DNA of 64,000 nucleotides from Hymenobacter sp. BT188 (GTDB lineage: Bacteria; Bacteroidota; Bacteroidia; Cytophagales; Hymenobacteraceae): the NCBI RefSeq assembly GCF_014333585.1, contig NZ_JACSCW010000006.1, positions 62,001 through 126,000 on the forward strand. Direction: 5' to 3'. Position 1 is the stretch's first letter. The number at the start of each line of letters is the position of its first letter. Under the pieces are notes generated by a model. It saw only the letters and a program-made list of their open reading frames with translations, was not told the DNA's origin and did not search any database. Position numbers and translations under genes: made by a program. Below, in pieces: positions 17,227 to 24,347 of this stretch.

Positions 17227-18126
17227 ATGTTTAAACGTGTACTTTCTTTAGTCGTCTTTGCTGTGATGCTGCCTTATTTCAGCTTCGCGCAGGCCGACCG
17301 AATTTCAGGTCGAGTAGTTAATAAAGAAACCCAGGAGCCTATTCAGTACGCTTCCATCGGGTTGAAAGAAGAGCAAGTAGGTGCTTTGACCAACGAATAC
17401 GGCTATTTTCAGATAGCCATGCCAGAGAAAAATCAGAAAGACTCGCTGATTGTGATAGCGCTGGGCTTTAAGCGCACAGCCATTCTGGTAAGAAAAAGCG
17501 ATAAGAATCTGGAGGAAATAATTCTTGAGGTGCCCAAGCGCGAATACTTGCTCAACGCAGTTAAAGTTGAGGCTAGCAAGGTAAAGCCAATCGGACTTGG
17601 AGCGCGCTCCAATACGCCCGGCGACGGCATGATTCAGGGCATGCCCGGTACTCAATATGCCTTCTATGTCAAGAATGACAAAGGCAAGAAACTAGGCTTG
17701 GTACGCACCGTGTCATTCTTTATTGGTGAGCATGGCTTTCCTCGCGAGCCGTTCCGCATTCGTATTTACGCCCCCGACGGCAACTATAGCTCGCCAAACT
17801 CCGACTTACTGACTGAGAACGTCGTGGTATCGGCTATGAAAGGTGGCGCCTGGTACACCGTCGATTTGACGCAGTACAACATCGTGGCGCCGGACGAAGG
17901 GTTCTATGTCGCCATGGAATGGATCGTGACGGGTGACAAGTTTTACACCACCAACTTCATGGACACCTACACGCCCTACGGTCAGATCCTGCGGCCGACG
18001 TTCGAATTCAAAGAAAGCCGCACCTGGAATTACACTATCGGACGCGGCTGGAGCTTAATCACCTTGGCTAATAATGGTATGCGCTACAATGCCATGATTA
18101 AGGCCGAGGTAGACATGTATAAATAG
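17227..18126 (+). CDS. Secreted carboxypeptidase-regulatory-like domain protein (copy 1)
   Basis: A 299-residue exported protein with a signal peptide (residues 1-22, ending FSFAQ) and a carboxypeptidase-D regulatory-like beta-sandwich (about 25-110: ISGRVVNKETQEPIQYASIG, ALTNEYGYFQI). The C-terminal half (about 125-299), from LGARSNTPGDGMIQGMPG on, looks like a second beta domain with PREPFRIRIYAPDGNYSSP and DEGFYVAMEWIVTGDKFY. The regulatory-like domain is frequent in Bacteroidota surface proteins. The function of the second half is not known to me. A near-identical-length paralog follows at 18306. Confidence 0.82.
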   Translation: MFKRVLSLVVFAVMLPYFSFAQADRISGRVVNKETQEPIQYASIGLKEEQVGALTNEYGYFQIAMPEKNQKDSLIVIALGFKRTAILVRKSDKNLEEIILEVPKREYLLNAVKVEASKVKPIGLGARSNTPGDGMIQGMPGTQYAFYVKNDKGKKLGLVRTVSFFIGEHGFPREPFRIRIYAPDGNYSSPNSDLLTENVVVSAMKGGAWYTVDLTQYNIVAPDEGFYVAMEWIVTGDKFYTTNFMDTYTPYGQILRPTFEFKESRTWNYTIGRGWSLITLANNGMRYNAMIKAEVDMYK

Positions 18127-18305: not shown

Positions 18306-19205
18306 ATGTTCCAACGCGTACTATTCACCTTTACCTTCTGTTTGCTGCTTCCGGCACTAAGTATGGCCCAGGAGACTCGGCTATCCGGCCGTATCATCGA
18401 CAAGAAGACGAAAGAGCCCATTCCCTTCTCTTCCATCGGTTTGAAGGATGAGCAAAGCGGTGCTCTTACCAACGAAATCGGCATCTTCCAAATGAGCGGT
18501 CCTACCAAAAATGCCCAGGACTCGCTGATCGTTCTAGCCTTGGGTTACGAGCGCAAAGCTGTGCTGGTAAAGCGTGGCGCGAGCCAGGCCGATATGGTAA
18601 TTGAAGTTTCCAAACGGGTATATGAGCTGGCTGAGGTTAAAGTACAGGCCAGCAAGGTGAAAGACCTGAAATTGGGAGCCCGCTCTAACACACCCGGCGA
18701 TGGCATGATTCAGGGCATGCCCGGCAGCCAGTATGCATTTTTCGTGAAAAACGAAAAGGGCAAAAAGCTGGGTAACGTGCGCTCCGTTTCGTTCTATATT
18801 GGGGAGCACGGCTTCCCGCGCGAACCATTCCGGGTGCGCATCTACGCTCCCGACGGCAACTACAGTTCGCCAAACTCCGACTTGCTGACTGAGAACGTGG
18901 TGGTGTCGGCACCGGGCGGCGGACAGTGGTTTACGGTTGATTTGACGCAGTACAACATCGTGGCGCCGGACGAAGGATTCTATGTAGCCATGGAGTGGAT
19001 TGTAAGCGGTGACAAGTTCTACACCACCAACTTCGACGACAACTACACTCCTTACGGACAGATCATGCGTCCCACGTTTGAATTCAAAGAAAGCCGCACT
19101 TGGAGCTATACGCTCGGTAAAGGCTGGACACTGATGACCATGTCGGGAGCTGGTGGCTTGCGCTACAACGCCATGATCAAGGCCGAAGTTGACATGATTA
19201 AGTAG
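18306..19205 (+). CDS. Secreted carboxypeptidase-regulatory-like domain protein (copy 2)
   Basis: It has the same length (299 residues) and layout as the gene at 17227: signal peptide ending SMAQ, LSGRIIDKKTKEPIPFSSIG, then the shared C-terminal domain. The N-terminal domain differs at many positions, whereas from LGARSNTPGDGMIQGMPG on the two are almost identical, including a run of about 40 identical bases (near 17870 and 18942). It has its own pyrimidine-rich leader (about 18240-18305), and a strong hairpin terminator follows at 19238. Role unknown; presumably a periplasmic or surface protein. Confidence 0.82.
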   Translation: MFQRVLFTFTFCLLLPALSMAQETRLSGRIIDKKTKEPIPFSSIGLKDEQSGALTNEIGIFQMSGPTKNAQDSLIVLALGYERKAVLVKRGASQADMVIEVSKRVYELAEVKVQASKVKDLKLGARSNTPGDGMIQGMPGSQYAFFVKNEKGKKLGNVRSVSFYIGEHGFPREPFRVRIYAPDGNYSSPNSDLLTENVVVSAPGGGQWFTVDLTQYNIVAPDEGFYVAMEWIVSGDKFYTTNFDDNYTPYGQIMRPTFEFKESRTWSYTLGKGWTLMTMSGAGGLRYNAMIKAEVDMIK

Positions 19206-19307: not shown

Positions 19308-19916
19308 TTACCTGTTGATCACGGCTATTTCAACGCGACGGTTTTGCTGGCGGCCAGCGGCCGTAGCGTTAGAAGCCACAGGTTTCGACTCGCCCATAGG
19401 CTGAATAGCTACGCGCGAAGCTTCGATCTTGCCATTCTGCACCAGCCAGTTTTTCACTGCTTCGGCGCGCTGCTCGCTTAACTCTTTGTTGTACGACTTG
19501 GTATCGCGCGAATCAGCATGACCAATAATATGCAGCTGCTTACCAGCCGAACGTTGCCCAATAGAAGCGGAGATCTGCTCCAGCGCTTTGGCTGCGCCCG
19601 GCTTAATCGTGGCTTTGTCGGTATCAAACAGCACCGTTTCCTTGATGCCATACACGCTGTACTGGTCATTGCCGCGCACAGACACGTCCGGAAGATTAAC
19701 CTCCGGAAAATCGACGTCGGGCAAATTCAGCGCGTCGGTATCGATCAAATCGCCCTCGGCAACGGCGACAGCGGGGCCTTCTTGGCCTTCACGATAAACT
19801 ATAGCTGTATCGGCGCTGGCTTCTTCGGGCTCGTTTTTGGTAGCCGGATTTTTCAGGTTGTCGCAGCTAGCCAGCAGGACAGCGGCACTGAGAATCGTAA
19901 GGAGGAACTTTTTCAT
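19308..19916 (-). CDS. OmpA-family lipoprotein
   Basis: A 202-residue lipoprotein. The lipobox LLASC puts the lipidated Cys at residue 18. An acidic, repeat-like linker (about 30-85, with LPDVDFPEVNLPDV) leads to an OmpA C-terminal peptidoglycan-binding domain (about 90-202): VLFDTDKATIKPGAAKAL, HIIGHADSRDTKSYNKELSE, then GRQQNRRVEIAV. It should tether the outer membrane to the cell wall. The ATG at 19916 lies inside one arm of a perfect 23-bp inverted repeat (19915-19983), which could limit translation initiation. Confidence 0.9.
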   Translation of the reverse strand: MKKFLLTILSAAVLLASCDNLKNPATKNEPEEASADTAIVYREGQEGPAVAVAEGDLIDTDALNLPDVDFPEVNLPDVSVRGNDQYSVYGIKETVLFDTDKATIKPGAAKALEQISASIGQRSAGKQLHIIGHADSRDTKSYNKELSEQRAEAVKNWLVQNGKIEASRVAIQPMGESKPVASNATAAGRQQNRRVEIAVINR

Positions 19917-19983
19917 AGCCTCGGTGAACCGTTGTGGAGCCCTGTTCTACGAACACGACCCCACAACGGTTCACCGAGGCTAT
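19915..19983. repeat. Perfect 23-bp inverted repeat overlapping a start codon
   Basis: The arms 19915-19937 and 19961-19983 are perfect reverse complements, each 23 bases. The 23-base loop contains its own small hairpin (TGTTC-TAC-GAACA). In minus-strand mRNA the 3' arm ends on the first bases of the lipoprotein ATG (19916-19914). There is no T run after it. It could terminate the upstream hydrolase transcript, block lipoprotein translation, or be a small mobile or operator element. Confidence 0.75.
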
Positions 19984-19998
19984 TGCCTTGCTTTCCTT

Positions 19999-21396
19999 TT
20001 ACTTCGCTTTCTCCGTGGCCTGCACTATAATCCACTGCCGGATTGCCTCCTGCGCCTGGGGCGAAAAAGTAGGCTGTGGCTGGCCATTCACCACTGCCCA
20101 CTCCGATGGATCCGCCTGAAACATATGGTTTACGCCAGTCAATTTGCGGGTATTCACCGAAGAACTACTTTTCAGACCTCTCTGCAAGGAATTAAGATTA
20201 AGTTCAGCTTCAATATACGTGTCGGCAGTACCAGAAAGCAGTAATACTGGGCACTTCACACTAGGCAGTTTATCGGCAGGGTTAAAATCCAGAAAGTAGC
20301 GATACTTATCAGTAGTTAACAAGCCAGCACTAATCTTAGCTGTGGCCATATCGATAGATGGATTCGTTTCTCTTAGCATGATAGCCACTAAGCGCTGAGC
20401 CTTAGTGTTATCAGGCGTTTGACGAATTACATCAAGAATAGCCTGTCGGCGCATAACTCCTATTTGCATTTGCGTCAGGCTGGCGCCCAAGGAGCGATGC
20501 AATTCGGCTTGCTGCTGCAGTACCAAGTCGCGGCCAGATAACCCACTGGCGGCCATGGTAACCACGAAGTTGGGAGCGTCTTCTTGGGCGGCGGCGAGCA
20601 AAGCAAGATTGCCCCCCTCACCGTGTCCAACAAACCCAACTTTGGCAGCATTGATCTCGGGCCGACTACGCAGCGCACGCATAGCTGCCTGTAGGTCGGT
20701 TAATAAGGCCGGAGGTGTAGCCTCATTATAGTCACCGCCTGATTTGCCTACGCCCCGGTCATCGAAGCGAAGCACGGCAATACCACGACGGGTCAGGAAG
20801 TCGGCCAGCACGCCCATGGGGCGGTAGTCACCTACAGCAGCATCACGATCTTGGGCTCCCATATCCGAAATCAATACGACAGCAGGAAATGGACCTTCAC
20901 CCGCCGGTACCGTGAGCATTCCTCCCAAGGTCAAATTGGCTTCGGTGTTAGTCACAGCTACTTCCTCCTCGCGATAAGGAGGCGTTAGTCGGGCACTTTT
21001 GGCCGTGCTTATCGGGGCCGACGTGTAGCCAAGCGTCAAAGCCACTTGGTAGCCAGGCTGTTGCCAGGTACCAGTCAATGCTTTGCCATCTGCTGACACC
21101 AAGCCCATGAATTGACTGCCCGCTTCGGGAGCCATAAATACGATGGTATCACCTCTTACTTCAACGCTGACAGCCATGCGGCTAATCTTTTGCTGCGGCA
21201 CGTCAAGCGTAGCGAAGAAAGAGCCCCCAGTGAGGGCTACTACTCTAAATACCACCTCTAGCTGGCCGCCTGGCACAGGTAAAGGCCCCTTCCACAGACC
21301 ATCTAATGCAGGCGCTGCCGCACGAGCTGGAGTGGACAGAAGCAGCCCAATAACCATACAGAAGCTTAAACAAGATGAGTAGAGAATTTTCTTCAT
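19999..21396 (-). CDS. Exported alpha/beta hydrolase-like protein with Gly at the nucleophile position
   Basis: The start at 21396 gives a signal peptide (MKKILYSSCL onward, ending ARAAA); the codon at 21453 is less likely. The 465-residue product has an N-terminal beta domain (about 30-140) and an alpha/beta hydrolase domain (about 145-465) of the acylaminoacyl-peptidase-like group, with VLRFDDRGVGKSGGDYNEAT near 208. The expected nucleophile elbow GHSEGG reads GHGEGG at residues 257-262 (codon GGT instead of AGT). The acid Asp (LLLSGTADTYI) and His (GVNHMFQ) are present. Either it is catalytically dead or it uses another residue. Its stop lies 83 bases before the lipoprotein ATG. Confidence 0.83.
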   Translation of the reverse strand: MKKILYSSCLSFCMVIGLLLSTPARAAAPALDGLWKGPLPVPGGQLEVVFRVVALTGGSFFATLDVPQQKISRMAVSVEVRGDTIVFMAPEAGSQFMGLVSADGKALTGTWQQPGYQVALTLGYTSAPISTAKSARLTPPYREEEVAVTNTEANLTLGGMLTVPAGEGPFPAVVLISDMGAQDRDAAVGDYRPMGVLADFLTRRGIAVLRFDDRGVGKSGGDYNEATPPALLTDLQAAMRALRSRPEINAAKVGFVGHGEGGNLALLAAAQEDAPNFVVTMAASGLSGRDLVLQQQAELHRSLGASLTQMQIGVMRRQAILDVIRQTPDNTKAQRLVAIMLRETNPSIDMATAKISAGLLTTDKYRYFLDFNPADKLPSVKCPVLLLSGTADTYIEAELNLNSLQRGLKSSSSVNTRKLTGVNHMFQADPSEWAVVNGQPQPTFSPQAQEAIRQWIIVQATEKAK

Positions 21397-21837
21397 GCAA
21401 AAGGAAGTGAGGAATGAATGTGGGTAGCTTAAGATAAGCGTGTGGTAAGCCAAGGACGCAATGCGTTACCACATCAGATCGGAAATTTCGGCTTATACAA
21501 AACGTGCACCAGAGGCACACAAAAATGGCATTAAGGCCAGAAAAAAAACTTTTTCTGGCCTTAATGCCATTTTATTTATAAACTAAGATAAGAAAGTTGT
21601 CTTAATGCTTACAAATTAACGAAATATAACATGACTCAATCGGATAGTGCATTTGCAAAAGCATTCGAAGTCTACCCATTCATACTTATAAACGGATTAT
21701 TTTGAATTTAATCACCCGTTAGCATCCTACTATATTTTGGGACTTACATCAACTCAGAATTATCTATTTCAATTTCTATTTTTTAAATTATACTAAGGAA
21801 TATACATAGCATATAAAGACATATAAGCAGAGATTAA
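21397..21837. other. 441-bp gene-free, A/T-rich interval
   Basis: No convincing gene was found here on either strand. The interval is far richer in A+T than its surroundings, especially 21574-21837. It holds one strong hairpin (21522-21573, listed separately) about 265 bases after the murF-alr stop codon. The remainder probably contains the promoter of the hydrolase gene starting at 21396 and the 3' untranslated region of murF-alr; no clear promoter box was identified. Confidence 0.5.
21522..21573 (-). terminator. Perfect 24-bp stem hairpin, bidirectional terminator
   Basis: The arms 21522-21545 and 21550-21573 are perfect reverse complements around a four-base loop. The stem contains GGCATTAAGGCCAG flanked by A and T runs, so it can work in both directions. 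It probably ends the murF-alr transcript. Confidence 0.75.
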
Positions 21838-24333
21838 CTATTCAGTTATGAATATGCGCTTTACTCGCTCGCTCACATTTGTCAATAGCTCGTAGGGGAT
21901 GGTGCCGATGCGGGAAGCCAGTTCAACCAAGGGCATCTCCTCACCAAATACAACTACTGAGTCGCCGGCCTGCACATCGGGAATGTGGGTTACATCGACC
22001 ATGCACATATCCATGCACACGTTGCCCAATATTGGAGCCCGTAGGCCGCGTATTACTACTTCGCCCACGCCATTGCCGAAGCGCCGATCATAGCCATCGG
22101 CGTACCCGATGGCTATTGTGGCAGTGCGCCGCTCAAAGTTGGTGGCAACACCCCGGCGTCCGTAGCCAACAGTTTGACCAGCAGGCAGTTTTTTAACCTG
22201 AGAGATGACTGTGCGCAAGGCGCTAACTGGTCGCAGAGCCGCTGAATCCTGCCCCGAGGCTTCTACTCCATAAAGGCCGATGCCCAGCCGCACCATGTCC
22301 AGATGAGCCTCCGGAAAGCGTATGATGCCAGCAGAATTTAACGCATGCTTCAATACAGGATAACCAAGAGCGGCTTCCACAAGCGGAGTCATTCGCTGGA
22401 AAGCGGCTAGCTGCTGGTGCGAGAAATCGTTGTGCTGCTCTTCGTCAGCACCTGCCAAATGGGTCAGCATGCTGGCTATGCGCAGTTGGGTGGCTTTTTC
22501 GCGCAATAGTTTGCACAGCTCTTCCAGGTCCTCCTCAGCAAAGCCTAACCGCCGCATACCTGTATCGAGCTTCAGATGAATGGCCGGCATGGACTGATCC
22601 TGGGTGGCCAACAGGTAATCGTGCAGACGCTCGAAGGAGTAGATTTCGGGTTCCAGATGATACTGATGCAACTTTTGAAAGCTGTCGGGCGAAGGATTCA
22701 TCACCATAATCGGCAGACTAATACCGTGTTGCCGCAGCTCGACGCCTTCATCAGCGTATGCCACGGCCAGGTAATCGGCGCGGTGAAACTGGAGCAGGTT
22801 GGCCACTTCGTAGCTGCCGCTGCCGTATGCAAAGGCTTTTACCATTACCATCAGGCGGGTGCCGGGCGCGAGGCGGGCACGGTAGTAGTTGAGGTTGTGA
22901 ACCAGCGCATCCAAGTTCACTTCCAGTACGGTACCGTGAATCTTTTGCTGAAAAGCGGCCACAATCCGCTCAAACTCAAAGCGGCGGGCACCCTTCACCA
23001 GAATCGTCTCGTGGCGAAACTGCTCGGGCTGAAAAGCAGCCAGAAACGCTTCGGTACTGTCATAAAAAGCCCCCCGGACCTCGCCAAACAGCTGCTGATG
23101 CGCGCTTATTGCCTCGCCAATGCCAATGATTCGACCTACACCGTGAGCGGGCAGTTGAGCTGCGATTCGAGTATATAGATCCGCTGCCGGTAAGCCTGAT
23201 TCGAGCACGTCGGAAAGGATAAGGGTGCGTTGCCCACGGCGCGGCTGACGAGCCAAGGCATCAAGGGCCAGCGTGAGGCCGGCTAAGTCATTATTGTAAG
23301 TATCGTCGAGCACGTAGCAGTCGTTGAGGGCCTGCTTCATCTCTAGGCGCATGGCCACGGGCAGCAGGCGGTCGAGGCGGCGCTGAATCTCGGCGGTGGG
23401 CACGGCGTACCAGAGCAGCACAGCCAAACAATGCAGGGCATTTTCTACCGAAGGCTCATCGGCGAAGGGCAAGGTAAACGTATATTCTTCAACTCTCGGG
23501 CGGACCAGATTCACATGCACCACCGTGCGTTCGGCACTGGCCTCCGTTATCGTAACGCCCAAATTTGCTCCCCGCTGCTGTTGCCGGCTCCAGGTAAAGG
23601 TTCGGGCCGGATTAAGCCTCTGCTGGGCAGCATTGTGAATGGCTTCATGGTCGCGGCAGTAAAAGAGCGTATCTACAGCTTCAAAAAGCTGCATTTTTTC
23701 CTGCACTTTCTCTTCTGCCGAGGCAAAGCCCGCATCGTGGGCCGTACCAAGATTGGTGAAAATGCCGAGTGTGGGCTGAATGATAGCGGCGAGTTTGGTC
23801 ATTTCGCCCCGCTCTGAAATGCCTGCCTCAAAAATTCCGAGCGTGTGCGTTGCGTTCAACTCCCACACCGACAGAGGCACGCCAACTTGCGAATTATAGC
23901 TACGCGGGCTTTTACAGATCAGCTCATCGGAGCTAAGCAATTGGGCCAGCCACTCTTTTACAATGGTTTTGCCGTTGGATCCTGTGATCCCAACTACCGG
24001 AATATCAAATTGTCGCCGGTGCCAGGCTGCCAGCGCCTGCAGGGCCGCCAAACTGTCTTCCACTTGCAGAAAGCCTGCTTCGGGAAAGGCCGATTTGCCC
24101 CCCGGAATCTCTTCGACACTATCGACAACAAACAGGCGCACGCCGCGCTGATACAAGTCGGGCAGGTAGCGGTGGCCGTTGTGCTGGGCTCCGCGGATGG
24201 CAAAAAACAGGGACCCGGCCGGCTGCCCCACGCGCCGGCTGTCGAGCAGCAGGTGTTGCACGCGACTCGCCTCGGGAGGCGTTTGGAGCAAGGTGCCGCC
24301 GGTGAGAGCGGGCAAATCGGAGAAGGATAGCAT
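21838..24333 (-). CDS. Bifunctional MurF ligase / alanine racemase fusion
   Basis: A single 831-residue chain. The N-terminal half (to about 455) is UDP-MurNAc-tripeptide:D-Ala-D-Ala ligase, with VVGITGSNGKTIVKEW (ATP loop at 117-123) and ILSDVLESGLPAADLYTRIA. The C-terminal half is alanine racemase, opening VLEVNLDALVHNLNYYRARL with the PLP lysine in MVMVKAFAYGSG and the late AIGYADGYDRRFGNG. It thus makes D-Ala and adds D-Ala-D-Ala to the peptidoglycan precursor. The fusion is known in Bacteroidota. The ATG at 24333 is chosen because the TTG at 24342 lies inside a TACCTTTG -7 box (24347-24340), implying a leaderless or nearly leaderless mRNA. Confidence 0.93.
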   Translation of the reverse strand: MLSFSDLPALTGGTLLQTPPEASRVQHLLLDSRRVGQPAGSLFFAIRGAQHNGHRYLPDLYQRGVRLFVVDSVEEIPGGKSAFPEAGFLQVEDSLAALQALAAWHRRQFDIPVVGITGSNGKTIVKEWLAQLLSSDELICKSPRSYNSQVGVPLSVWELNATHTLGIFEAGISERGEMTKLAAIIQPTLGIFTNLGTAHDAGFASAEEKVQEKMQLFEAVDTLFYCRDHEAIHNAAQQRLNPARTFTWSRQQQRGANLGVTITEASAERTVVHVNLVRPRVEEYTFTLPFADEPSVENALHCLAVLLWYAVPTAEIQRRLDRLLPVAMRLEMKQALNDCYVLDDTYNNDLAGLTLALDALARQPRRGQRTLILSDVLESGLPAADLYTRIAAQLPAHGVGRIIGIGEAISAHQQLFGEVRGAFYDSTEAFLAAFQPEQFRHETILVKGARRFEFERIVAAFQQKIHGTVLEVNLDALVHNLNYYRARLAPGTRLMVMVKAFAYGSGSYEVANLLQFHRADYLAVAYADEGVELRQHGISLPIMVMNPSPDSFQKLHQYHLEPEIYSFERLHDYLLATQDQSMPAIHLKLDTGMRRLGFAEEDLEELCKLLREKATQLRIASMLTHLAGADEEQHNDFSHQQLAAFQRMTPLVEAALGYPVLKHALNSAGIIRFPEAHLDMVRLGIGLYGVEASGQDSAALRPVSALRTVISQVKKLPAGQTVGYGRRGVATNFERRTATIAIGYADGYDRRFGNGVGEVVIRGLRAPILGNVCMDMCMVDVTHIPDVQAGDSVVVFGEEMPLVELASRIGTIPYELLTNVSERVKRIFITE

Positions 24334-24339
24334 GGAGAG

Positions 24340-24347
24340 CAAAGGTA
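24340..24347 (-). promoter_or_regulatory. -7 box of murF-alr (nearly leaderless)
   Basis: TACCTTTG on the minus strand ends 7 bases before the ATG at 24333, so transcription should start at or next to the start codon. No good -33 TTG was found at the usual distance. Confidence 0.45.

Follow-up and report, generated by a model that had tools for sequence, protein, structure and literature searches.

A long palindrome in Hymenobacter sp. BT188 that very probably encloses the promoter of an OmpA lipoprotein gene and may act as a border hairpin behind the gene upstream

The stretch of DNA analysed here, hereafter the window, comprises 64 kb of the chromosome of Hymenobacter sp. BT188. Within it, an OmpA-domain lipoprotein gene and an alpha/beta-hydrolase-like open reading frame (ORF) are co-directional on the minus strand and separated by 82 nt, 69 of which are occupied by a palindrome. 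The features of this locus, all on the minus strand, are as follows.

19308..19916, minus strand: OmpA-domain lipoprotein gene (202 amino acids; PF00691, E 2.5e-21; lipobox-like LLASC read by eye)
19915..19947, minus strand: 3' arm of the palindrome, making up most of the predicted 5' leader and including the first two bases of the ATG
19934..19973, minus strand: 40-nt core, shared without change by the window, Hymenobacter qilianensis and H. roseosalivarius
19941, minus strand: predicted transcription start, the 7th nucleotide after CGTA (distance assumed)
19948..19951, minus strand: CGTA, a -10-like element; the 5' arm ends in its C, and its GTA forms the loop
19951..19983, minus strand: 5' arm of the palindrome in the sense direction, holding a -35-like AAC (19969-19971) and the promoter spacer
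19999..21453, minus strand: alpha/beta-hydrolase-like ORF, 5' of the lipoprotein gene, listed from TTG

For the hydrolase ORF, an internal ATG is a likelier start than the listed TTG and, judging from the gene arrangement, this gene is a possible source of RNA that reads through into the lipoprotein gene. On its other side, a single ORF carries both Mur ligase and alanine racemase domains (21838-24342), and between this ORF and the hydrolase gene lies a perfect 24-bp inverted repeat with an A-tract and a T-tract (21522-21573), which is probably a bidirectional terminator. Convergent with the lipoprotein gene are two tandem genes encoding similar 299-aa proteins with an N-terminal CarboxypepD_reg-like domain (17227-18126 and 18306-19205).

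The 69-base near-perfect palindrome (19915-19983) consists of two 33-nt arms that are 91% complementary and separated by 3 nt. Its outer 23 pairs are perfect, in agreement with an initial sequence-only reading of this DNA, which had described mismatch-free 23-bp arms, one of them reaching into the start codon; the outermost A and T are indeed the first two bases of the lipoprotein ATG (19916-19914). The same reading had placed a second small palindrome in the loop. The symmetry is genuine (TGTTC-GTA-GAACA), but rather than forming a separate element it prolongs the same stem past one G.G mismatch. Two further positions are G-U pairs on the sense strand, and the sense RNA has 32 pairs and one mismatch. 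Folding of a 141-nt sense stretch around the palindrome gave -74.6 kcal/mol compared with -38.9 +/- 3.8 kcal/mol for shuffled sequences (z = -9.47).

The palindrome heads the inverted repeats listed for the window, with the longest arms; its arm length of 33 nt is equalled by one other pair, of 79% complementarity. The window holds seven other pairs whose arms reach 16 nt or more at 90% complementarity or higher, and every one of them possesses A/T tracts, either next to a C/G run or on the flanks of the stem, whereas the palindrome has none. Intrinsic terminators of this genome are built from an A-tract, a C/G-rich stem and a T-tract. The palindrome is like them in being a long stem between co-directional genes, at a place where some relatives have a hairpin followed by a T-run, and unlike them in that no T-run directly follows its stem, which extends to the next start codon. 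A terminator scan of the window did not call the palindrome and found no minus-strand terminator-like site between the hydrolase and lipoprotein genes; it reported one weak plus-strand site of 6 pairs (19975-19990, tail CTTTCCTTTT) that overlaps the end of the palindrome. With neither a T-run nor A/T tracts, and given the outcome of the scan, we concur with the earlier judgement that this is not an ordinary terminator. A search of positions 19700-20200 against Rfam gave nothing above the gathering score; of three matches below the threshold, two were to microRNA hairpin families.

ECF-sigma promoters as a general class have AAC at -35 and a CGT-type -10 element, as exemplified by B. subtilis sigma-W. 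The palindrome contains the motif AAC-N17-CGTA, with AAC in the 5' arm and CGTA at the loop, and the form AAC-N16/17-CGTA looks like an ECF-sigma promoter in both sequence and spacing; we treat it as putative. A match at E <= 1e-40 was obtained in 113 genomes of the genus; from 111 of them, leaving out G036 and G123, we collected the regions upstream of the orthologous lipoprotein gene, and we added contig L036 to give 112 loci. Of these, 110 were anchored, with L122 and L129 dropped because no ATG lay near the aligned start, and since L036 and L128 are one contig the set holds 109 distinct regions. With spacings restricted to 15-18, 90 of the 110 regions (89 of the 109 distinct ones) contain AAC-N15..18-CGTA no more than 130 nt from the start, compared with a mean of 2.49 and a maximum of 6 in 100 dinucleotide shuffles, and with none of the 110 on the reverse strand. 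Of the occurrences, 58 have a spacing of 16, 32 a spacing of 17 and one a spacing of 18. The regularity of AAC-N16/17-CGTA before the OmpA lipoprotein gene can also be seen across the genus in individual loci, for instance L006, L008, L073 and L100. From this pattern, we consider it very probable that the promoter of the lipoprotein gene is located inside the palindrome.

Genome-wide, GAAC-N16/17-CGTA is not enriched (101 matches, compared with 320 for the reversed pattern), and hence no regulon was drawn. Among the 22 sigma-70 region 2 loci above cut-off, the motif lies within 500 nt upstream of the domain in one, which is no more than expected by chance. Neither result points to a particular sigma factor for the motif, and none of the sigma-70 loci stood out convincingly as autoregulated. 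Excerpts from studies of other Bacteroidota give motifs that differ from that of the window, both for the one proposed for P. gingivalis SigP (PMC4800418) and for the SigW-1 promoters of B. thetaiotaomicron, where TGTT is reported near -10 (PMC12596196). A TAnnTTTG-like element is absent from the last 150 nt before the gene in the window and its three close relatives (clade A, below) and in the three members of a further group (clade B, below). Our literature search returned nothing on Hymenobacter sigma factors or promoters in connection with OmpA, nor on transcription start sites or RNA-seq, which is not proof of absence.

If the promoter is real, RNA starting downstream of CGTA lacks the 5' arm, and the stem would therefore form only in RNA that reads through from the hydrolase gene. 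The interpretation that we tentatively prefer, and to which we give somewhat less than an even chance, is that the palindrome marks the border of the hydrolase unit as a hairpin which, at this locus, also surrounds the promoter of the lipoprotein gene and keeps read-through RNA from being translated. With the -35 element of the ECF-type promoter AAC-N17-CGTA in the 5' arm and the -10 element at the loop, promoter-started RNA would carry the 3' arm only, as a leader of approximately 25 nt, and would be translatable. RNA reading through from the hydrolase gene would carry both arms and form a stem of approximately 33 bp, in which the ribosome site and the start codon would be buried, and without firing of its own promoter the lipoprotein would not be made. 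Computation establishes the palindrome, the conserved motif and where it lies, the conservation of the core and the repeated presence of unrelated long hairpins in this gap (below); we infer that the motif serves as a promoter, that transcripts do read through, that translation is blocked by the stem and that the stem has been retained for this reason. A regulatory stem at the start codon, as the sequence-only reading had proposed, is plausible, and its claim that the start region would be locked in the mRNA would hold for read-through RNA but not for promoter-started RNA, which lacks the 5' arm. That reading had named a transcription start downstream of the hairpin as evidence against its proposal; the predicted start, at about 19941 and inside the 3' arm, would come close to this.

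The palindrome is present in other versions at the orthologous place in three genomes, G010 (H. qilianensis), G102 and G103 (identical here to H. roseosalivarius), which together with the window we term clade A; H. qilianensis and H. roseosalivarius are the two close named relatives found. Under one scoring, the stem spans 33 nt per arm in the window, 25 in G010, 22 in G102, where it is perfect, and 17 in G103; in H. roseosalivarius the outer stem has decayed or been lost. The predicted effect on translation initiation was assessed by comparing the folding of RNA that includes the end of the upstream gene with that of RNA beginning at the 7th nucleotide after CGTA, an assumed start. In read-through RNA, the predicted cost of opening positions -18..+12 places clade A at ranks 1, 2, 3 and 6 of 110 loci, for which the median is 5.0 kcal/mol. 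Between read-through and promoter-started RNA, this predicted cost falls from 40.5 to 10.5 kcal/mol in the window, from 28.3 to 7.3 in G102, from 27.9 to 7.0 in G010 and from 15.5 to 5.1 in G103. The mean unpaired probability of positions -15..+9 did not separate clade A, the gain on removal of the 5' arm ranking 34, 53, 46 and 7 of 89; opening cost was chosen after this measure, and both are given. The promoter-started leaders of clade A are themselves more structured than most (ranks 1, 5, 7 and 16 of 89). Excerpts from work on Flavobacterium johnsoniae, in a phylum without Shine-Dalgarno sites, report that structure in the start region reduces initiation (PMC6847099). On these folding predictions, the read-through RNA of clade A should be a poor template for the lipoprotein, whatever the hairpin does for the hydrolase mRNA.

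The 40-nt core (19934..19973) shows no difference between the window, H. qilianensis and H. roseosalivarius, whereas 4-fold sites of the two flanking genes in the same three species are 54-75% identical, with the H. qilianensis hydrolase read in part; between the window and H. roseosalivarius alone, the figure is 55%. Promoter spacers elsewhere in the genus vary widely in comparison with the perfectly kept core spacer of these three species. The kept spacer speaks for constraint, which from sequence comparison could act either on the stem or on the exact sequence. The fourth member, G102, has AACCC in its inner 5' arm in place of the GGTCG of the other three, and AACCC is the exact reverse complement of its own 3' arm; by manual count, five of its six inner-stem differences keep or improve pairing. 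This pattern fits selection for the stem or, alternatively, a single template switch. Across the four clade A sequences, a small set for this purpose, covariation amounted to 3 two-sided pairs, a number reached by 70 of 500 shuffles and so not above chance.

Hairpins were also scored over 300 nt in the 110 upstream regions; a shorter scan, confined to the 130 nt before the gene together with its ATG, truncates the hairpin of G138. Three genomes that we term clade B carry palindromes of 28 pairs (G066), 27 pairs (G133) and 28 pairs with two mismatches (G072), which are unrelated in sequence to that of the window and enclose the lipoprotein promoter in another register, with the AAC placed at the loop and the CGTA falling within the 3' arm. 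Pairing is largely kept between G072 and G133 (25 of 27 pairs, with 2 two-sided changes), while in alignment G066 breaks 17 of the 27 pairs, though its own 28-bp stem is perfect, so that little can be read from the comparison. Counts of G-U and A-C on the sense strand were too small to tell which strand is being selected. Clades A and B lie apart in the tree of the lipoprotein (63 rows), with hairpin-less rows in between, and in the hydrolase tree (37 rows) each forms a supported group at an unresolved fork; from this and from their unrelated sequences, we take the two sets of palindromes to be probably of independent origin. Five further genomes (clade C: G018, G075, G088, G137 and G141) have T-run-type hairpins at or just before CGTA, and in four of them AAC is missing at the usual distance. 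Another lineage has its hairpin entirely 5' of the promoter (G138, 39 pairs; G140, 31; G009 and G023, 15 each). The inverted repeats of the first two (L081 and L083) are without a T-run and are about equal in length to, or longer than, that of the window.

Strong hairpins are concentrated at loci where the hydrolase gene lies upstream. A score of at least 13 was reached at 16 of 36 such loci and 1 of 74 others, in a manual count that relies on crude upstream-gene classes and is uncorrected for kinship. At a score of at least 10, the manual count was 19 of 36 compared with 12 of 74 in the 300-nt scan, and the corresponding figures in the 130-nt scan were 14 of 36 and 1 of 74. Many of the 12 hairpins among the 74 lie far upstream, probably within the upstream coding sequence, and that of L144, in the hydrolase class, may do so as well. 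The classes were assigned by a crude pattern, under which at least L009 was misfiled. Promoter enclosure is not common to these lineages, because the hairpins of G138, G140, G009 and G023 lie wholly upstream of the promoter, and neither is start-codon burial, because the clade B hairpins end at -22 to -33, with opening-cost ranks of 4, 32 and 48 of 110. What the lineages share is the presence of a hairpin between the hydrolase and lipoprotein genes, which supports a border role as seen from the hydrolase side.

This shared feature can also be read as serving the upstream gene only, in that the hairpin would terminate the hydrolase mRNA or protect its 3' end, and the overlap of the hairpin with the promoter and start codon would merely reflect a compact gap. 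We regard this as a real possibility, though we doubt it. Strong hairpins follow the hydrolase gene in several lineages whatever their position relative to the promoter, a score of at least 13 is reached at 16 of 36 hydrolase-upstream loci against 1 of 74 others, and there is no minus-strand terminator-like site between the two genes. However, neither clades A and B nor G138 and G140 have a T-run after the stem, in contrast to the A/T tracts of the window's other strong hairpins, and a role at the hydrolase 3' end alone leaves unexplained why the stem extends into the ATG and why opening costs there are the highest among 110 loci. A different proposal, which we think unlikely, grants a functional promoter but no function to the stem, which would be a near-neutral quasipalindrome made and re-perfected by template switching during replication. 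Excerpts from PMC8794818 indicate that template switching can create and mend hairpins, and those described there resemble the window's in having a perfect stem and a multi-base compensatory difference in one species, though they lie in RNA genes whereas the stem of the window covers a promoter. The AACCC of G102 is what one switch would yield, and the decayed outer stem of H. roseosalivarius is likewise in keeping with near-neutrality. A near-neutral stem is harder to reconcile with the identity of the core, which includes the spacer and the loop-side stem, at 54-75% 4-fold identity, with the wide variation of promoter spacers elsewhere in the genus, and with the recurrence of long hairpins in the same gap of other lineages.

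The inner dyad TGTTC-GTA-GAACA is centred on the -10 element and intact in three of the four clade A species, as would be expected of a DNA operator bound by a dimeric regulator. We nonetheless consider an operator very unlikely, since the 5' half of the dyad carries five base differences in G102 that retain pairing rather than identity, the clade B palindromes differ in sequence and register, and stems of 22-33 bp go beyond what an operator usually needs. The size and symmetry of the palindrome, which is readable as an insert between two genes, also recall a small palindromic mobile unit, REP- or MITE-like, as the sequence-only reading had suggested. There is no second copy of the 69-mer in the genome (5.0 Mb, 20 contigs), and the 23-mer, with up to 3 mismatches allowed, matches only the palindrome's own two arms, which disposes of the idea that the arm belongs to a repeat family. 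In 120 genus genomes, matches to the palindrome with E below 1e-9 outside the source genome were confined to the orthologous place in G010, G102 and G103; many of the weak matches to part of the core in other genus genomes look coding by eye. Two clade B palindromes used as queries likewise matched only at their own or a sister's locus. Being single-copy and locus-specific in both the source genome and its relatives, the palindrome is extremely improbable as a mobile unit, and we rejected this reading.

The border hairpin that we tentatively prefer, with its enclosed promoter, has a precedent in bacteriophages. The excerpted text of PMC2988022 describes hairpin and promoter logic of this kind for T4 I-TevI, lists T4 soc and e among cases of ribosome-site sequestration, and names T4 I-TevI, I-TevII, I-TevIII, segB, soc and e, among others, and Aeh1 mobE as having read-through-blocking hairpins. 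In these systems, as proposed for the window, the ribosome-site hairpin is confined to RNA from upstream promoters, and RNA from the adjacent promoter is too short to fold it (PMC2988022, as excerpted). By the same features, the window is predicted to have a stable hairpin over the translation start, with an opening cost of 40.5 kcal/mol (weaker in H. roseosalivarius, at 15.5), and by sequence its promoter-started RNA would lack one arm, as CGTA lies at the loop. The phage examples are late genes that possess Shine-Dalgarno sites and are served by T4 late promoters, whereas the window presents a chromosomal gene of a Bacteroidete with an ECF-like promoter and a predicted start. By analogy, the hairpin of the window would work like those of T4 I-TevI without being a member of that phage set.

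If this is true, the T4 rule by which only transcripts from a gene's own promoter escape the hairpin and are translated extends to a cellular chromosome and an ECF-like promoter. It would also mean that a stem at a start codon need not imply a structured main mRNA. With unrelated hairpins in varied positions around one conserved promoter, the hydrolase-lipoprotein gap offers a natural series for studying the origin and role of border hairpins. A broader and more speculative proposal, which we think rather improbable, is that Hymenobacter has converted this ECF-type promoter to a long palindrome at least twice, probably by template switching, giving a chromosomal switch that admits the gene's own promoter only, by shutting translation in clade A and by otherwise insulating the gene from neighbour RNA in clade B, and that such switches may recur at other ECF-driven genes of Bacteroidota.

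Finally, locus L064 (G018) contains at approximately 1440-1580 another probable gene start with GCGTAGAACAGG-CCTCCAC, a sequence very like the -10 element and leader of the window. This start region is set within an inverted repeat, CCTGTTCTAC...GTAGAACAGG, and from its sequence is possibly another promoter with a palindrome.
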